Assembly (NCBI RefSeq): GCF_024612015.1
Contig: NZ_CP102512.1
Span: 9,858,001-9,922,000, forward strand
Source of the DNA: Streptomyces sp. CA-210063
GTDB taxonomy: Bacteria; Actinomycetota; Actinomycetes; Streptomycetales; Streptomycetaceae
DNA length: 64,000 nt
Direction: 5' to 3'
Positions 4,548 to 11,502 of the stretch are shown one piece after another; positions within the stretch are counted from its first letter, which is position 1; the number at the start of each line of letters is the position of its first letter. A program made the position numbers and the translations under genes. The notes beneath the pieces are model-generated. The model saw only the letters and a program-made list of their open reading frames with translations. It had not been told where the DNA came from and did not search any database.

Positions 4548-6002
4548 TCAGACCGCCGGAGCCGGGTACGTCGGGTACTCCACCCCGGAGACGTGCTGGA
4601 CGACGCGGATGACCTGGCAGGAGTAGCCGAACTCGTTGTCGTACCAGAGGTAGAGGATCGCGTTGTCGCCGTCGACCTTGGTGGCGCCGGCGTCGACGAT
4701 CGAGGCGTGCCGGGAGCCGATGAAGTCGCTGGAGACCGAGTCGGGCGCGTTGGTGAAGTCGATCTGGCGCTTGAGCGGCGAGGTCAGCGAGACATCGCGG
4801 AGGTAGTCGAGGACCTCCTCGCGGTCGGTCTCACGGCCCAGGCGCAGGCTGAGGATCGCGATCGAGACGTCCGGGACGGGGACGCGGATCGAGCTGCCTG
4901 TGATCGGCGCCTTCAGGTCGGGCAGCGCCTTGGCGACGGCCGAGGCGGCACCCGTCTCGGTGATGACCATGTTGAGCGGCGCTGAGCGGCCACGGCGGTC
5001 GGACTTGTGGTAGTTGTCCAGCAGGTTCTGGTCGTTGGTGAACGAGTGGACGGTCTCCACGTGGCCGCGCAGTACGCCGAACTCGTCGTCCATCGCCTTC
5101 AGCGGGGGGACTATCGCGTTCGTCGTACAGGACGCGCAGGACAGGATCTGCTCGTCCGGCTTGATCGTGTCGTGGTTGACGCCGTGCACGATGTTCGGGA
5201 CGTCGCCCTTGCCGGGCGCGGTGAGGACGACCTTGTCGATGCCGGGGCGCAGATGCGTCGACAGGCCCTCCCGGTCGCGCCACTTGCCCGTGTTGTCGAT
5301 GAGGATGGCGTTCTTGATGCCGTACTCGGTGTAGTCCACCTCGGACGGGTCGTTCGCGTAGATCACCTTGATGGTGTTGCCATTGGCGACGATCGTGCTG
5401 TTCGCCTCGTCGACCGTGATCGTGCCCTGGAACTGCCCGTGGATGGAGTCCCGGCGCAGCAGCGAGGCCCGCTTCACGATGTCCTCGGCGGCCCGCTCGC
5501 CGCCCCCGCGCACCACGATGGCGCGCAGCCGCAGACCGTTGCCCGAGCCGGCCTTCTCGATCAGCAGTCGGGCCACGAGACGGCCGATGCGGCCGAAGCC
5601 GTAGAGGACGACGTCGCGTCCCTCGCCGCCCTCGATCTTGTTGGCACCCGTGGCGCCGGCGACGGCCTCGGCGGTGAACTCCGCGATGGACAGGCCTCGG
5701 TCGTCGGCCCGGTACGTCGCGGCGAGCATGCCGATGTCGATCTGGGAGGGGCCGAGGTCGAGCGTGGTGAGGGCCCGCAGGAACGGCAGGGTGTCGGTGA
5801 CCGAGAGCTCCTCACCGGCGATCTGGCGGGCGAAGCGGTGGGTCTTCAGGATGCTGACCACCGACTTGTTGACCAAGGAGCGGCTGTGCAGCAGGACCGT
5901 CACGTCCCGCTCGCGGTGCAGCTTCCCGATGATCGGGATCATCGACTCCGCGATCTCCTCGCGGTTCTTCCAGTTGGTGAACGAGTCCTCGTTGACAGTC
6001 AC
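4548..6002 (-). CDS. gap: Glyceraldehyde-3-phosphate dehydrogenase, long form
   Basis: 484 residues, about 150 more than the common enzyme because of an N-terminal helical extension (first 125 residues, MTVNEDSFTNWKNREEIAES onward) typical of one actinobacterial/proteobacterial GAPDH class. The nucleotide-binding loop GFGRIGR is at about 135-141. The catalytic cysteine is Cys292 in SCTTN. The enzyme interconverts glyceraldehyde 3-phosphate and 1,3-bisphosphoglycerate with NAD(P); this class is often thought to work in the gluconeogenic direction. It is transcribed alone, with hairpins on both sides. It is probably not the genome's only gap gene; that is inference. Confidence 0.93.
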   Translation of the reverse strand: MTVNEDSFTNWKNREEIAESMIPIIGKLHRERDVTVLLHSRSLVNKSVVSILKTHRFARQIAGEELSVTDTLPFLRALTTLDLGPSQIDIGMLAATYRADDRGLSIAEFTAEAVAGATGANKIEGGEGRDVVLYGFGRIGRLVARLLIEKAGSGNGLRLRAIVVRGGGERAAEDIVKRASLLRRDSIHGQFQGTITVDEANSTIVANGNTIKVIYANDPSEVDYTEYGIKNAILIDNTGKWRDREGLSTHLRPGIDKVVLTAPGKGDVPNIVHGVNHDTIKPDEQILSCASCTTNAIVPPLKAMDDEFGVLRGHVETVHSFTNDQNLLDNYHKSDRRGRSAPLNMVITETGAASAVAKALPDLKAPITGSSIRVPVPDVSIAILSLRLGRETDREEVLDYLRDVSLTSPLKRQIDFTNAPDSVSSDFIGSRHASIVDAGATKVDGDNAILYLWYDNEFGYSCQVIRVVQHVSGVEYPTYPAPAV

Positions 6003-6054: not shown

Positions 6055-6093
6055 GATCACGCCATCGGGGCCCATGAGCGCGATGGCGTGATC
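6055..6093 (-). terminator. Terminator-like hairpin after the protease-nuclease gene
   Basis: A perfect 13-bp stem, GATCACGCCATCG (6055-6067) with its complement at 6081-6093, closes a 13-base loop. It is 31 bp beyond the stop of the gene ending at 6125 and 52 bp before the gap start, so it most likely ends the upstream operon. It could also act as an operator for gap. Confidence 0.6.
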
Positions 6094-6124: not shown

Positions 6125-8308
6125 TCAGGGCCAGACACCGGAGAAGTCGATCTTCTCGGCCCAGTCCGGGTGGTCTATCAACGGATTGCGGTTGCCCTGC
6201 AGTTCGGCGATGGCGGCGTTGCGGTGCAGCTCGTACTCGGTCACCGGCTCATTGACGTGCCAGGCCAGGAGGGTCGGCAGCCGGTTCTCGGGGAACTCGC
6301 GCCGGGTGTCGCCGACCTGCTTCGGGTAGCGCAGCAGGAAGTACAGGGTGGCCCGGGCGACCGCGCCCTTGCCCGTCTTCGGCTCGAACCCGATGTCCTC
6401 GCGCATCCCGCAGGCGTCCCGGATCTTCTCCTCGAAGTCGGCGAAGTCGACGTAGGGGAAGTTGCCGCGGAAGCTGTTGCAGCCGACCTCGCAGGCGAAC
6501 AGATGGTGCAGGTCGCCCCGCATCGGCTCCTTCTTGAGGAACCACGACTGCGGTACGACGTGTTCACAGTTGAACGGCATCGACGCCTCCAGCGCGTCGA
6601 ACTCCGCCTCGAACTCGGCCGGGCCCGCGGTGCCCTCGTGCAGGAAGAGTTCCTGGATGCGCGCCATCCGGGCCTCCTCCACGGCGGCGTCCGCCCGTAT
6701 GAACTCCTCCGCGGAGAAGTCCTTGCCGGAGTAGATGCTGCGCAGCCGGCCGTCCCGGTGCAGGTCGACCCACGGATAGACGAGCCGGATCGGCTTGTAC
6801 TTGGGCCGGGGGTCGTGTGTGCGCGTCAGCAGTTCGGTGAGCGCGCGGCGCAGCGCGTCCCCGTTGTCGGTGCCGATGCCCGCGTAGTAGGCGTCGCGGG
6901 CGGCGGTGTCGGCGGTCCGGTCGTAGTACGGCCGCTCCCGCGCGAGCCGGTGGTTGACCAGCGCCGCGTTCAGGTCCCGCTCGACCGCGAAGGCCACGTC
7001 GGGCCGCCCGGCCGGGGGCGCTGCCGGGGGCGTGAGCCCGGCCGGTGGGGCGGTGGCGGTCTCCACCGGGAACGCCGACGCGTCGAGGCCGACGCTGATC
7101 CGCAGCGGGACGGTGAGATGGGCGGTGCCGTCGGTCATGTACGCCCGCGCCCCGTCGGGTCCCGGAAGCGTGGCCGCCCCGTCACCCGAGGGCGCGGGCG
7201 GGGCGCTCTCGACCGGGGCCGGAGCGGGCCCGGCCGTGGTCCCGGCGCTGAACACCTCGTCGCGGAGCCGGGCGGCCGCACCGGTCAGGGTGAGTTCGTG
7301 CAGGGCGCGCAGCACACGGCTGATCCGCACCCCTTCGTTGGCCTTCCACGCCAGCCGGTCGTCGCCCATGTCCGGCGTCCAGACGGTTCCGTCGACGCTG
7401 AGGGGTCGGCCCTCGTCGTCGGTCTTCGGGACGGCCGAGTGGTGCAGCGCGACGACCTCCCACTGGTCGTTGAAGACCGGCGAACCCGATGAACCCTCAC
7501 GGGTGTCCGACTCGTAGTGCATGAAGCGGTCGAGTATGTCCACGACCTGGTTCTCGCGCAGCGCGAGCTGCTTGGGCTCGCCCCGGGGATGCTGGATGAT
7601 GCTCACGAACTCCCCGATGACGACCGTGCCCAGCGCCTCGCTGAGCGTCAGCCGGCCGAAGGAGGAGAGCGCCTCGCCCCGCGCCCCGCGTTCGGCCACC
7701 GCGACCAGGCTGAAGTCCAGTCCGCGGTCGGTGACGAAGAACCGGTGCGGTTCCAGCTGGAACACCGCCGGTGTCAGCGGATGTCCGTCGATCCCGGCCT
7801 GCAGCGAGAACGCGACCACACTGCGACGAGCCTCCTCCTGGCTGCGCAGCACATGGTTGTTGGTGAGCAGCAGGGAGGGGGACACCAGGAAACCGGTGCC
7901 GTGGCCGCCCCCGGGGCCGCTGAGGGTGATCCGGCCGACCGAGCGGGAGACGAGGGCGCCCTCCTCCAGGAACGCGACCGGAGCGAGGTTGTTGCGCCCG
8001 ATGAGGCGTTCCAGGCCCAGCACGTCGCTGCCGAAGCTCTCCGGCGGCAGCCGCAGGGTGCTCCCGGCCGCGGTCACCGGCTCCGACGGCTCCCGCTCGA
8101 TCGCCCTGGCCAGTGACCAGTCGGCGCCGAGGCGGGCCAGCCGCTTCTCGACCCGCTCCGGTTCGTCGGCGTACAGCACGCCACGCGTCCGGAGCAGCTC
8201 TCGGGTTCGCTCCCGCTCGCCGGACCGGTTCGCATAGCGTTCCGCGGCCCTCGTCAGCTGTGACAGGTAGTGGGATTCGGTGGGGGAGAAGAGTTCCGCC
8301 GTTGTCAT
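6125..8308 (-). CDS. Trypsin-like serine protease fused to endonuclease I-type nuclease
   Basis: 727 residues in two enzymatic halves. Residues about 110-340 are a trypsin-like peptidase with all three catalytic positions: His152 (LTNNHV), Asp198 (GLDFSLV) and Ser276 (GSSGSPV). A Pro/Ala-rich linker covers about 355-435. Residues about 450-727 match the endonuclease I family: IYSGKDF, NCEHVVPQSWF with the catalytic His583, DLHHLFA, NSFRGNFPYV, and the C-terminal AELQGNRNPLIDHPDW. No signal peptide or membrane segment is seen, so a cytosolic protein that can cut both protein and nucleic acid is suggested, perhaps held inactive until the protease acts. It follows two coupled unknown genes 76 bp upstream. 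Substrates are unknown. Confidence 0.88.
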   Translation of the reverse strand: MTTAELFSPTESHYLSQLTRAAERYANRSGERERTRELLRTRGVLYADEPERVEKRLARLGADWSLARAIEREPSEPVTAAGSTLRLPPESFGSDVLGLERLIGRNNLAPVAFLEEGALVSRSVGRITLSGPGGGHGTGFLVSPSLLLTNNHVLRSQEEARRSVVAFSLQAGIDGHPLTPAVFQLEPHRFFVTDRGLDFSLVAVAERGARGEALSSFGRLTLSEALGTVVIGEFVSIIQHPRGEPKQLALRENQVVDILDRFMHYESDTREGSSGSPVFNDQWEVVALHHSAVPKTDDEGRPLSVDGTVWTPDMGDDRLAWKANEGVRISRVLRALHELTLTGAAARLRDEVFSAGTTAGPAPAPVESAPPAPSGDGAATLPGPDGARAYMTDGTAHLTVPLRISVGLDASAFPVETATAPPAGLTPPAAPPAGRPDVAFAVERDLNAALVNHRLARERPYYDRTADTAARDAYYAGIGTDNGDALRRALTELLTRTHDPRPKYKPIRLVYPWVDLHRDGRLRSIYSGKDFSAEEFIRADAAVEEARMARIQELFLHEGTAGPAEFEAEFDALEASMPFNCEHVVPQSWFLKKEPMRGDLHHLFACEVGCNSFRGNFPYVDFADFEEKIRDACGMREDIGFEPKTGKGAVARATLYFLLRYPKQVGDTRREFPENRLPTLLAWHVNEPVTEYELHRNAAIAELQGNRNPLIDHPDWAEKIDFSGVWP

Positions 8309-8321
8309 GGGTCCGCCTTCC

Positions 8322-8371
8322 GTGGTGGGCGGTGCAGGTCGTGGGCGTTGTAGGTGGTGGGCGGTGCAGGT
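8322..8371. repeat. 18-bp direct repeat in the 5' gap of the protease-nuclease gene
   Basis: GTGGTGGGCGGTGCAGGT occurs at 8322-8339 and 8354-8371, a 32-bp period, with related GGTGG-rich sequence between and after. It fills most of the 76-bp gap between the two genes. Confidence 0.7.
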
Positions 8372-8384
8372 GGTGTGCGGCGCG

Positions 8385-9533
8385 CTACGCCACGAGCCGG
8401 GTGCTGCGTGACGCCTGGTCGGGGTGGGTCCCGAGGTAGCCGTGCGCGGAGAACGCGGCGGGGGAGAAGGCGCCCGGCGTGACGTCGTCGCCCGCCGCGA
8501 GCTCCACGCAGGAGGTCCGCGGCTGGACCTCGCTCTGCCCCAGGCGGCAGGCGGTGGCCATGAGTTTCACGGTGACGAAGTCGGCGATCTGGGCGCCGAA
8601 CTCGATGGGCCTGCCGGCGATGGTGATGTCGCCCACGGTGAAGTCCCGGTCCGCGGGCACCTCGTAGACCGCGCGTACCGGGAAGCCGGCGGCGCCGCGT
8701 TCGAAGGTCCAGAAGCTCTTCGGATCGGAGCCGTCGGGAGCGCGCCAACCGTCGGTGGCCAGGTCGTCGAAGTAGATCCCCACCGGGTCGCTGAGCGCGA
8801 TGTCCGCCTTCTGCCGGGCGATCGAGTTGACCACCTCGCCGATGTGCGGGTCGCTGTTGCGGTCCGGCACGCCGTACTTGCCGCAGGCGATGAGTTCCTG
8901 TGCGCCCGTGAGTTCCCGGCCGCCGATGAGGCGCCGGATCGTGGCGGCGGCGGCGAGTTCGATCTCCGCACCGAGGGTGTTGGACTGCTGGATGAGGTGC
9001 ATCGCACCCTGTGTCGTGGAGTCGTTCCACTGGTTGCGCCGCACGTACCGGCCGTTCGGACCGAAGAGGTCGCTCTTGCCCACGGCCGGGTCGATGTGGG
9101 CGCGGTAGAGGTCGAGGGCCTTGTCCGGGCTGGTCTGCGCCAGCACGTCCCAGTACTCGGGGCCCTCGCAGGTGAAGGTGACGCGAGTGATCCTGCCCGT
9201 GCTGTCGCGGGTCACGCTCCACTCGCAGTACTCGTCCTGCACATCGCGGCTGGCGTCGGCGCGTTGCCAGCGCTGCCGGTCCGAGATCGCTGATCTGAGG
9301 CGGTTGGGAAACGCGGTCCAGGTGACGGCCGCCTGGACCGCGTCCGTCGCGGTGTCCGTCTTGGTGAGGTTGTAGAACTGCGGCCGGGGGCTGTCGTGCA
9401 GCACCTCGGCCGGGTCCGGCCCGGTGATCGCCCGGTCGACACTGTCGCTGATGAAGACGTGCCACGCCTTCGTCCCGACGTCGTCGAGGTCGGTGAGCCG
9501 TCCGGGAGGCCCGTACACGGTGATGGTGGTCAT
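8385..9533 (-). CDS. Conserved-looking protein of unknown function
   Basis: 382 residues, no family recognised. It has no signal peptide and no membrane segments. Strings that look conserved are EYCEWSVTRD, CEGPEYWDVLA, GAMHLIQQSNTLGAEIELAA, then a block around SDPHIGEVVNSIA and DPVGIYFDDL. A cysteine-containing C-terminal third (LMATACRLGQSEV, SCVELA) follows a beta-rich stretch. The ATG at 9533 is chosen: it overlaps the upstream TGA by four bases and has GGAGG in front. It ends 76 bp before the protease-nuclease fusion, so all three probably form one operon. It may be a substrate, activator or inhibitor of the fusion; that is inference from position only. Confidence 0.8.
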   Translation of the reverse strand: MTTITVYGPPGRLTDLDDVGTKAWHVFISDSVDRAITGPDPAEVLHDSPRPQFYNLTKTDTATDAVQAAVTWTAFPNRLRSAISDRQRWQRADASRDVQDEYCEWSVTRDSTGRITRVTFTCEGPEYWDVLAQTSPDKALDLYRAHIDPAVGKSDLFGPNGRYVRRNQWNDSTTQGAMHLIQQSNTLGAEIELAAAATIRRLIGGRELTGAQELIACGKYGVPDRNSDPHIGEVVNSIARQKADIALSDPVGIYFDDLATDGWRAPDGSDPKSFWTFERGAAGFPVRAVYEVPADRDFTVGDITIAGRPIEFGAQIADFVTVKLMATACRLGQSEVQPRTSCVELAAGDDVTPGAFSPAAFSAHGYLGTHPDQASRSTRLVA

Positions 9534-11164
9534 GGAGATCCTCCGGTGGTCACGACACCGACGGTGCCGTCCTCGTGCATGCGCAGCCGGGGTGCGTCGG
9601 CCGGGATGTCGGTCGTCGGCAGGGTGAGCGCGAACTCGTTGAGCCTCATCTCCTTGAACACACGGCGGCGCGACTCGGCCAGCCTGGTGAACTCGTCGAA
9701 TCCCGAGGCCGTACGGAGCCGTGCCGCGACCTTCTCCAGGTACACGTCCACGCGCCGGGCGAAGACGCCGCGCCAATCGGCTTCGGGGAGCGCCCAGTTG
9801 CGGGCGAACTCGGCTTCCGGGCCGTCGGCGGGCCCGGTCCGCGCGGCGGCGACGACGGCCGCGGCGATGTCGTCGCACCACGTCGGGGCCGGCACGGGGT
9901 CGGTGGGTACATAGGTCATCAGCCGGGCGCGGGCCGGGCTGAAGACCGGGTTGGTGAAGTCCACCATCAGCGCGCACGCCGCGAATCTGGCCGGCACGAG
10001 GCCCTTCTCCACCAGCTGCCGCACCACGTCGTTGTCCTCGTAGGCGGCCTCCGGGACGACGAAGGCGAAGAACGTGTCGCCCCGCTGCGAGAAGTCGCTC
10101 ACCTGCTCCTCCAGCCGGAAGCCGAAGGCCTTGAGGCTGTCCGCGTACAGGGACGCCGGCGCGGACGGCACGGTCCCCGTGCTCACCGGCAGACCGAGAT
10201 CGTTGAGCAGGGCGTCGGCGTTCAGCCAGAAGCCCAGGGGCAGGCTCAGCTCTCCGCCGCCGGACGCGACCGTCGCGCTCTGCGTGGACGTACTGGCGAG
10301 GTTGACCGTGGTGGTGGTGAACAACTGCCGCAGCAGATGGTCGGGGTGGGTCACCATGCCGTCGTCGACGACCGCCGAGAGCCGTGCCGAGGTCCACCGG
10401 GAGACCAGCCCCTTCACGGTGAGCTCCAGCCGCTCGGCGCCGATGACCTGGCCGTGGAGCGGGTTGTCGCGCAACGGGTCGTCCGGGGCGAGCTGGATCG
10501 TCGCGGACATCGACTGCCAGTTGCTCCAGGGCTGCTTGAGTTCCTTCATGACGACGCTGCCGTTGACATGGCTGTCGAAGCAGCCCTTCCCCCGGGATTC
10601 GGGCGCCATCGACGACCAGGAGTCCCCCGTCCACACCCAGGCCGGCGAGATCCGCATGTAGTAGTTGAAGATCTGGGCCACCGGGTCCCAGGCGGCGACC
10701 TGGAGGAAGACCGAGCCGGGGTCGCTGCTGACCAGCAGGTCCGGGTCCTGGCCCGGTGCCGCGCGGGAGACCGCGAAACGGAAGTCGCGGCGGAGCCCCG
10801 GAGCCTCGTCCGGCGGGATCTGCCCGGCCTCACTGATCAAGTACACGGACTGCGCAGTCAGCTCACCCGCCCCCGTCAGCCCGTCCAGCACCTCTTCCAG
10901 GGTCATGGGCCAGCGATCCCGCTGGAAGAACACCCTGGCCATCGGGTCCCGCAGCCCGGTGGCCTGCCCCGCGGGCATGGGCACCGGGCCCCGGTCCACG
11001 CCACTGACGCCGCGGTACAGCGTCCCCGGCCGCAGCCCGCCGCCCTCGTCCGCCGGGCCGAACGCCGGCTCTGCCGCTGCCGTAGCCGTAGCCGTAGCCG
11101 TAGCCGCGGCTTCCGGCCAGGCGGTCGCCCGCCGGCGTTCAGGGGTGCGGTCCCACAGCGACAT
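9530..11164 (-). CDS. Large protein of unknown function, first gene of the protease-nuclease operon
   Basis: 544 residues, no family recognised. The first 45 residues are low complexity, with an Ala-Thr run from a hexanucleotide repeat, and look disordered. The rest reads as globular: VFLQVAAWDPVAQIFNYYMR, then FDSHVNGSVVMKELKQPWSN with Cys and His just before, then LRQLFTTTTVNLA and FALTLPTTDIP near the end. No signal peptide or transmembrane segment is seen. It overlaps the next gene by ATGA, so the products are probably made in matched amounts. A subtilisin remnant lies 28 bp upstream of its start. Confidence 0.8.
   Translation of the reverse strand: MSLWDRTPERRRATAWPEAAATATATATAAAEPAFGPADEGGGLRPGTLYRGVSGVDRGPVPMPAGQATGLRDPMARVFFQRDRWPMTLEEVLDGLTGAGELTAQSVYLISEAGQIPPDEAPGLRRDFRFAVSRAAPGQDPDLLVSSDPGSVFLQVAAWDPVAQIFNYYMRISPAWVWTGDSWSSMAPESRGKGCFDSHVNGSVVMKELKQPWSNWQSMSATIQLAPDDPLRDNPLHGQVIGAERLELTVKGLVSRWTSARLSAVVDDGMVTHPDHLLRQLFTTTTVNLASTSTQSATVASGGGELSLPLGFWLNADALLNDLGLPVSTGTVPSAPASLYADSLKAFGFRLEEQVSDFSQRGDTFFAFVVPEAAYEDNDVVRQLVEKGLVPARFAACALMVDFTNPVFSPARARLMTYVPTDPVPAPTWCDDIAAAVVAAARTGPADGPEAEFARNWALPEADWRGVFARRVDVYLEKVAARLRTASGFDEFTRLAESRRRVFKEMRLNEFALTLPTTDIPADAPRLRMHEDGTVGVVTTGGSP
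11079..11102. repeat. Coding hexanucleotide microsatellite (GCCGTA x4)
   Basis: Four exact GCCGTA units (TACGGC on the coding strand) lie near the 5' end of the gene ending at 9530 and encode alternating Thr-Ala. Because the unit is 6 bp, slippage would change length without changing frame. Confidence 0.85.
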
Positions 11165-11191
11165 GGTTCTTCCACCCTCCGTCGCGCACAG

Positions 11192-11320
11192 CTACGAGAA
11201 GTGGCTCAGGACGTAGGACAGGGCGGCGTCGACGTTCACCAGCTTCGCGCCCACGGGCCGGCGCCCAGCAGTACCACCGCAGCGCCCGCGACTTGGGGCA
11301 CCGCCACCGACGTACCGGCG
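11192..11320 (-). pseudogene. C-terminal remnant of an S8 (subtilisin-like) serine protease
   Basis: Reading the minus strand, one frame gives FAGTSVAVPQVAGAAVVLLG, which matches the active-serine block of subtilases (usually Gly-Thr-Ser-Met-Ala-Ala-Pro-His-Val-Ala-Gly). A shift of frame is then needed to reach GAKLVNVDAALSYVLSHFS and the TAG at 11192. The Asp and His parts of the triad are absent, so only about the last 40 codons survive. It points in the same direction as the protease-nuclease operon and may once have been its first gene. Confidence 0.6.
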
Positions 11321-11502
11321 AACAGCGCCCACCCCCGGTGTCGCCTTGTGTTGGCTCTTCCCTTCGATGCTGGCAGGTGCGGCAAACATGTGCAAAAGGT
11401 GCGTTGGGGAGTCGGTGGGACATTGTCGGCGGCCCGGTCTCCGCACCCCTACGGGTGCCACCTTGACGCCCCTGACCGGCGCACCTAGGTTCCCCTCGAC
11501 GC

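Follow-up and report, generated by a model that had tools for sequence, protein, structure and literature searches.

A conserved two-protein pair beside a trypsin-endonuclease I fusion in Streptomyces, a possible protease-gated killing module

The window analysed here is a 64,000-nucleotide stretch of Streptomyces sp. CA-210063, which occupies 9.858-9.922 Mb on one contig of 10.86 Mb. It carries three genes on the minus strand, which we call A (11164..9530, 544 aa), B (9533..8385, 382 aa) and F (8308..6125, 727 aa). Four bases are shared between A and B (ATGA, 9530-9533), and B ends 76 bases before F; the open reading frame calls thus bear out the three-gene order and the overlap described in an earlier note on this DNA. 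A perfect, terminator-like 13-bp inverted repeat on the same strand (6055..6093) lies 3' of the F stop codon, where the hairpin (6093-6055) has a z of -3.7 and precedes a same-strand gene (6002..4548) whose product looks, by eye, like glyceraldehyde-3-phosphate dehydrogenase. On the other flank, a permease and isochorismatase-like and fucosidase-like proteins were recognized by eye. No NTPase gene was seen in the operon.

F combines an N-terminal module, a trypsin-like protease, a linker of low conservation and an Endonuclease I-type nuclease. Pfam assigned residues 137-288 to Trypsin_2 (PF13365, E = 6.1e-24) and residues 577-714 to Endonuclease_1 (E = 3.5e-30). Among the best 120 of 2424 F homologues, His152, Asp198 and His583 are each present in 120/120, and Ser276 in 116/120, with Ala in the remaining 4. 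The proposal that F joins a trypsin-like triad to an Endonuclease I-type domain therefore stands. Its top PDB matches were SplB, V8-type glutamyl endopeptidases and Endonuclease I, so that F is homologous, domain by domain, to enzymes with solved structures; unlike these Spl/V8-type proteases and Endonuclease I enzymes, F fuses both activities and has no signal-like N-terminus. Within F, conservation among the homologues is lowest between the two domains (~361-440), which is compatible with a predicted proteolytic activation of the nuclease. DUF4157, Endonuclease_NS (PF01223) and EAD1 were not matched in F with Pfam. Both Endonuclease I and NucA belong to the beta-beta-alpha-metal class of nucleases. 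A search of 21 proteins in all against PADLOC-DB 2.0.0 gave four weak matches for F, the best (E = 8.2e-06) to RT-Protease models.

The location of these proteins was judged by hydropathy alone, as the best 19-residue stretch within residues 1-45. No signal-like N-terminus was found in A, B or F by this measure (0.57, 0.27 and -0.21, respectively), and five full-length S8 proteins of relatives likewise showed no hydrophobic N-terminal segment (-0.33 to 0.29). The worry that F carries an overlooked secretion signal and is a plain scavenging exoenzyme is thus answered, as far as hydropathy goes, by the lack of a signal peptide or membrane segment. The same observation would suit an exported arsenal, in which signal-less hydrolases leave the cell through a contractile injection system or by lysis and A-B act as packaging or carrier. 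Peptidases of M36, M28, M4 and S53 type, families that are usually secreted, are neighbours in some relatives, a gene adjoining F at one locus (L096) looks DUF4157-like by eye, and a phage-sheath gene is present in the genome itself. That sheath gene, however, lies at 3.06 Mb, ~6.8 Mb away from the window at 9.86 Mb, DUF4157 is not matched in F, and the immediate neighbours in the window look metabolic by eye. F therefore bears neither mark of an eCIS payload (DUF4157, sheath linkage), even if payloads may come without such marks, and we regard export as quite improbable.

Just upstream of A, in the same orientation, lies the relic of an S8 subtilase gene (11198..11349, minus strand), made of two pieces in different frames. 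The first (11349-11254) matches the Ser-motif region of S8 proteins in relatives at 69-72% amino acid identity over 32-33 aa and at 81-88% identity over ~80 bp of DNA, and the second (11252-11198) corresponds to the last ~18 codons of the same genes. An internal deletion has removed ~116 bases between the pieces, and the first ~400-410 codons left no trace in the 551 bases searched. In the closest relative, S. adelaidensis (L007), only the last ~14 S8 codons are left in 601 bases searched. A Pfam scan of the genome placed S8 domains at 15 sites elsewhere and none at this locus. A full-length S8 gene precedes A in five of the seven other Streptomyces with A-B-F (L008, L009, L010, L011 and L023); its product at L008 matches Pfam S8 (E = 3.6e-17), and the Ser motif is present in the other four. 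These alignments, together with the intact subtilase that occupies the first position in relatives, agree with the remnant reported earlier: the relic is genuine, and in the window's clade the operon once started with a subtilase.

A and B are less readily placed. Neither gave a match at E <= 1 in local Pfam, NCBIfam, PADLOC or PHROGs libraries, EAD1 was not matched in either with Pfam, and no PADLOC-DB 2.0.0 family was assigned to A or B. Homologues of B (best 120 of 1725 matches) carry a newer accession, PF26676, in the protein database, and a literature search on that accession returned nothing. The predicted model of B is confident (pLDDT 85.2, pTM 0.84), with no match in PDB or BFVD, and a known fold was likewise not matched for A. 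The low-confidence tail of B (349-382) is the same end that bears added domains in some relatives. We also considered whether A is distantly related to B's other partners, an idea that hhalign did not support (probability 1.6 for A-c1, 0.2 for A-c3 and 0.1 for A-c16). B is highly conserved: more than 30 polar positions (e.g., D100, E101, E104, E123, N170, R225, D228 and R279) are kept across groups in which its neighbour is A, c1 or DyP, compared at thresholds of 85, 70 and 40%. Retention across partner groups suggests that these positions may form a binding or active site, and the conservation of B looks more like that of a putative enzyme or ligand binder than that of a fast-evolving sensor.

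B is rare and widely scattered. It was present in 6/150 genomes of the genus and 4/396 genomes across the phylum, counting the source genome each time. With one genome scanned per species, 192 B relatives came up, the best 80 of which represent 78 loci in at least ten phyla, with a patchy distribution that takes in Actinomycetota, Pseudomonadota, Cyanobacteriota, Planctomycetota, Chlamydiota, Bacteroidota, Verrucomicrobiota, Chloroflexota, Nitrospirota and Myxococcota. Genes in the fetched loci were called with a codon-usage script. Among these best 80 of 192 matches, A adjoins B or is fused with it in 60/78 loci, and we show that A-B is a conserved pair. A virus or plasmid origin of B was considered and rejected: B was found in none of 50,697 phage records, was confirmed nowhere in IMG/VR, and occurred in 25 of 72,556 plasmid records, all at <60% identity.

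F is linked to the pair in a narrower circle. In the same set of best matches, full-length F directly follows B in seven Streptomyces loci (L007-L012 and L023), which brings the A-B-F adjacency to eight species with the window's own and answers the question whether the three genes co-occur elsewhere. Full-length F was found in 3/61 genomes, own included, and in the other two (G009 and G030) neither A nor B occurs within the 16 kb fetched around F; a B match is absent in G009, and G030 is among the genomes without a listed match. Conversely, five other genomes of the genus have A-B, and full-length F occurs in just one of them, G130, whose fragmented assembly places it on a different contig. 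F and A-B are thus separable, each occurring without the other. This bears on a toxin-antidote arrangement, in which F would be a standing toxin and A-B its bound inhibitor. Such an arrangement would sit well with A-B lying upstream of F in one tight unit, and with a planctomycetal chain (L033, below) that joins B to an F-like module; A-B nevertheless seems unnecessary for tolerating F, given that G009 and G030 carry F with no A or B nearby and that G009 has no B match. We consider it very improbable that F and A-B form a toxin and its antidote.

The most direct connection between B and hydrolases comes from fusions. At L033, in a Planctomycetota MAG, one 1376-aa ORF holds B followed by Trypsin_2, Exo_endo_phos and Endonuclease_NS (Pfam), and its residues 389-664 are 38% identical to residues 23-294 of F, that is, to the N-terminal module of F plus the protease. 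This F-like module fused to B supports a physical link. B is also fused to PLDc_2 (Pfam) in Microvirga (L034) and Mesorhizobium (L089), both of which have ORFs annotated as PLD proteins in plasmid records too, and Azospirillum (L036) has A, B and PLDc_2 in a single 1405-aa ORF, the PLD part of which resembles DrmC models in PADLOC (best E = 2.2e-21). No ambiguous letters occur within these four loci. An apparent fusion of B to S8 at L106 was rejected, as a run of 100 N (locus positions 9401-9500, residues 303-336) lies inside the ORF, between its B and S8 parts; all that is shown there is the order B, gap, S8. In S. atratus (L032), B is followed by a protein that shares 42% identity with F across residues 21-341 and whose C-terminal half has no Pfam match and no BLAST match to F. 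Since this protein is 60-61% identical over its full length to proteins of G009 and G026, a whole sister gene, and not a swapped half, replaces F. A THSLG motif seen by eye suggests a possible alpha/beta-hydrolase.

We then compared how often hydrolases lie near A-B. At 68 loci with A, 28/395 genes within three positions matched a hydrolase profile, compared with 8/438 genes farther away, and at 20 loci without A the counts were 0/106 near and 0/104 farther. These counts used trypsin, S8, caspase, PLD and EAD1 profiles, left out metallopeptidases and excluded eight short or duplicate loci (L001-L006, L087 and L094). With EAD1 excluded, 74 loci gave 27/435 near vs 8/467 farther (Fisher P = 0.0004, duplicates included), a set that contains near-duplicates such as L013 and L100 and counts L106 as fused (five fused loci; four without L106). 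Some of these loci also went into building the TRYP, S8, C14 and PLD profiles, whose training members therefore match by construction; key hydrolase cases were rechecked with Pfam. After B was clustered, the enrichment gave P = 0.04 at 85% identity and was not significant at 72% (P = 0.28) and 60% (P = 0.63). The fusions, therefore, and not the enrichment, carry the claim of a link between A-B and hydrolases. Among 22 named Streptomyces A-B loci, the window included, a trypsin, S8, caspase or PLD gene lies within three genes in 10 and not in 12, and 8 of the 10 belong to the window's clade. On a tree of 102 B rows, the hydrolase-neighbour state changed 9 times with L106 counted as hydrolase-linked; this tree omits twelve loci (L001-L006, L087, L094 and L096-L099) and B pieces <250 aa, and L074_7 and other rows form long branches.

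A conflict-type setting is seen in some relatives. Bradyrhizobium (L035) encodes a Trypsin_2-Endonuclease_NS protein, then two genes, then A-B-S8. The two genes after the L033 fusion encode an EAD1-Trypsin_2 protein and an EAD1 protein. L095 lies on a plasmid of R. leguminosarum; there A-B is preceded by trypsin, caspase, trypsin and S53-type genes and followed by S8 and PLD genes, all interspersed with other genes. Counting from B, the fifth and sixth genes encode the Septu proteins PtuA and PtuB (best E = 3e-223 and 1.4e-115), with GajA/GajB of Gabija beyond them. PtuA and PtuB directly follow B in Crocosphaera (L064), where A cannot be seen because B sits at a contig end. Caspase genes occur in L038, L039 and L095. 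M28 and M36-type peptidases, the second known by its FTP propeptide only, precede A-B-F in S. aurantiogriseus (L012), and peptidases of the same two types precede F without A-B in G030. In Mesorhizobium, M28/M36-type peptidases form one 1303-aa protein after the B-PLD fusion, and only there does an N-terminal HAD domain rise above the cut-off.

Other neighbours point in a different direction. A DyP peroxidase gene lies beside B in 13/102 rows and a CxxCH protein gene in 10/102, on distant branches. In a metabolic reading, A-B would be an oxidative or other enzyme pair, the hydrolases would share mobile or arsenal islands with it, and F would be a functionally unlinked neighbour in one clade. 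A-B pairs themselves, not only distant B, adjoin oxidase or peroxidase genes, so the function of the core may be redox: tyrosinase (L015), galactose-oxidase-like (L056), GMC oxidoreductase (L085), LodA/GoxA (L088) and animal haem peroxidase (L106) genes lie near A-B, and further B loci have tyrosinase (L091) or DyP plus LodA/GoxA (L090). The peroxidase and oxidase neighbours of B and of A-B together are the main evidence for the metabolic reading. The enzyme-like conservation of B across partner groups and the 12/22 Streptomyces A-B loci with no tested hydrolase within three genes would also agree with it. It is hard to square, though, with B being covalently joined to a trypsin-nuclease chain like F (L033) and, in three Alphaproteobacteria, to PLD, and with the adjacency of A, B and F in eight species; we hold this reading to be unlikely.

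Published systems offer partial parallels. Among papers found by searches on protease-nuclease fusions and their neighbours, the A-B-F arrangement is named in no title or abstract opening, subscription papers being outside the search. System 3 of Kaur 2020, as outlined there, fuses a nuclease to a trypsin-like peptidase, at times with S8, has EAD1 partners, and is predicted to run a proteolytic cascade that deploys a NucA nuclease (PMC7159879). F shares its trypsin-like peptidase domain, with the triad conserved, and the likeness is closest in relatives, where L035 places a Trypsin_2-Endonuclease_NS protein near A-B-S8 and the B-fused chain of L033 contains both domains (PMC7159879). Unlike System 3, the window's F carries Endonuclease I and not NucA (PF01223 occurs in relatives L033 and L035), and no STAND NTPase was found in A, B or F (PMC7159879). 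Of the further peptidases of System 3, the window retains only the S8 relic, with full-length S8 in five relatives; EAD1, an optional feature of that system, is found in L033 and not in the window's A, B or F; and no A-B-like pair is mentioned in the passages on System 3 considered here (PMC7159879).

According to Tuck 2025, in the portion describing these systems, trypsin-like proteases activate DNases in two defence systems, protease-activated MBL pro-nucleases occur in Hachiman, AVAST, Lamassu, DRT and canu loci, and cleavage unmasks the nuclease, likely killing or arresting the cell (PMC12799240). The pairing of a trypsin-like protease with a DNase is shared, in the window from genes alone (PMC12799240). 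As described there, the nuclease is MBL-fold and encoded by a separate gene, usually upstream of the protease, which is fused to a defence enzyme; F, by contrast, holds Endonuclease_1 and protease in one chain, and A and B have no Pfam match (PMC12799240). With a nuclease of Endonuclease I type that shares one chain with the protease, the window is a member of neither system as these sources define them. EAD-based conflict systems (eLife 2021, PMC8195603) show a likeness in the EAD1-trypsin gene at the Planctomycetota A-B locus (L033), whereas the window's A, B and F contain no EAD; the comparison extends to what that source sets out. On the accounts given in these sources, A-B-F is best read as a variant of two published kinds, the NucA-trypsin and the protease-activated-nuclease systems, with an undescribed A-B pair at its core.

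We propose, tentatively, that A-B-F is an intracellular, protease-gated killing module, a reading that could well hold and leaves slightly more room for doubt than for belief. F would be a two-domain effector with no signal peptide, in which a flexible linker connects the trypsin-like protease to the Endonuclease I-type nuclease. A and B would form a conserved two-protein core on which the effector docks, and in some relatives the effector would be covalently joined at the C-terminus of B. In the window's clade, a subtilase with no signal-like N-terminus once preceded A and has been lost in the window. A trigger, either infection or a developmental cue, might lead the core to permit proteolysis, in cis or via a partner protease, after which the nuclease would be freed or unmasked, DNA degraded and the cell killed. 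Docking, activation by proteolysis, trigger and outcome are the parts that we infer.

Here, in favour of the killing module stand 1) the gene order, the domains, the conserved catalytic residues and the lack of a signal-like segment by hydropathy, 2) the hydrolase modules of two kinds (trypsin-EEP-NucA and PLD) that are fused to B, 3) the different trypsin protein in the place of F in S. atratus, and 4) the genes for EAD1, caspase or Septu proteins that some relatives carry close to A-B or B. Against it count the 12 of 22 Streptomyces A-B loci that have no tested hydrolase within three genes, the F genes of G009 and G030, whose surrounding 16 kb contain neither A nor B, the fading of the hydrolase enrichment once B is clustered, the oxidase or peroxidase genes beside A-B pairs, the loss of Ser276 in 4 of the best 120 F homologues, the lack of a PADLOC match for A, B and the fused ORF of L033, and the lack of an NTPase gene in the operon. 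The conflict, defence or death role suggested in the earlier note accordingly gains from the EAD1-trypsin, caspase, NucA-trypsin, Septu and Gabija genes near some relatives and is not proven, since F and A-B also occur apart, over half of the Streptomyces A-B loci have no tested hydrolase nearby, and B often adjoins oxidase or peroxidase genes. The note's idea that one partner senses a trigger or silences the effector stays a conjecture.

A broader claim is possible and is held with considerable doubt: that A-B is an undescribed, cross-phylum core of programmed self-digestion or immune systems. In such systems B would be either the scaffold on which interchangeable hydrolase effectors dock or the enzyme that activates them. 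The effectors would be fused to B (trypsin-EEP-NucA, PLD) or come from adjoining genes (trypsin-EndoI, S8, or a trypsin whose C-terminal half differs), and M28/M36 or caspase partners would often accompany them. The undescribed two-protein A-B core is the part worth following, and the fusions make the model testable, as B is expected to bind the effector. If the proposal is true, two conserved proteins with no matched fold, which range from Streptomyces through rhizobial plasmids to Planctomycetota, would be a common core for protease-gated killing by swappable effectors. It would also add a further nuclease family, and effectors made of a single chain, to the recently found nuclease activation by proteases in bacterial immunity, and would open a direct way to study how multicellular bacteria undergo programmed cell death.

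In some relatives, homologues of the consecutive minus-strand genes A (544 aa) and B (382 aa), or of B, are found near known defence genes. On the Rhizobium leguminosarum plasmid pR132503 (locus L095, 14615-43750), A-B lies within a hydrolase cluster comprising trypsin, caspase, trypsin, S53-type, S8 and PLD genes, with Septu next and Gabija after it; this region is a plasmid defence island. In a Crocosphaera MAG (L064, 115-3509), PtuA and PtuB of Septu immediately follow B, which lies at the contig end.

Relatives of B are also paired with other proteins. A separate B branch is partnered by cluster c1, whose unannotated members carry a CxxCH motif (L061, L065, L066, L068, L069, L073, L079, L080 and L083) and, in several cases, a signal-like N-terminus as judged by eye; a Pfam search with the c1 member of L080 returned no matches. 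Elsewhere the partner is a DyP-type peroxidase gene (L070, L074, L077, L081, L084, L090, L104, L105 and others), and at L054, L070 and L105 this second pair, B'-DyP, adjoins A-B.

Peptidase genes recur around A-B or F, the 727-aa protease-nuclease fusion: M28 aminopeptidase and M36-type (fungalysin) genes were repeated neighbours (L012, L089, L097), encoded separately or as a single 1303-aa chain. An apparent B-S8 fusion at L106 (8493-10784) was rejected owing to a 100-base N gap inside the ORF, and because this gap is spanned, the locus demonstrates at most B/S8 adjacency at an indefinite distance. The neighbouring genes there are Abhydrolase_1 and, beyond A in the other direction, an animal-type haem peroxidase.

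F also occurs without A-B: at L096 (6226-10974, genome G009), it adjoins a DUF4157-like gene and lies near a radical-SAM-like gene, both read by eye. Among the 120 listed F homologues (P0241-P0360, best of 2424), the alignment places Ala at the catalytic Ser276 in four that retain the nuclease His; these are perhaps dead-protease versions.

Finally, certain A and B copies are undergoing decay, as L041, L093 and L058 show: two Rhizobium records carry A as a pair of ORFs, and in a Flavobacterium MAG neither A nor B is intact.
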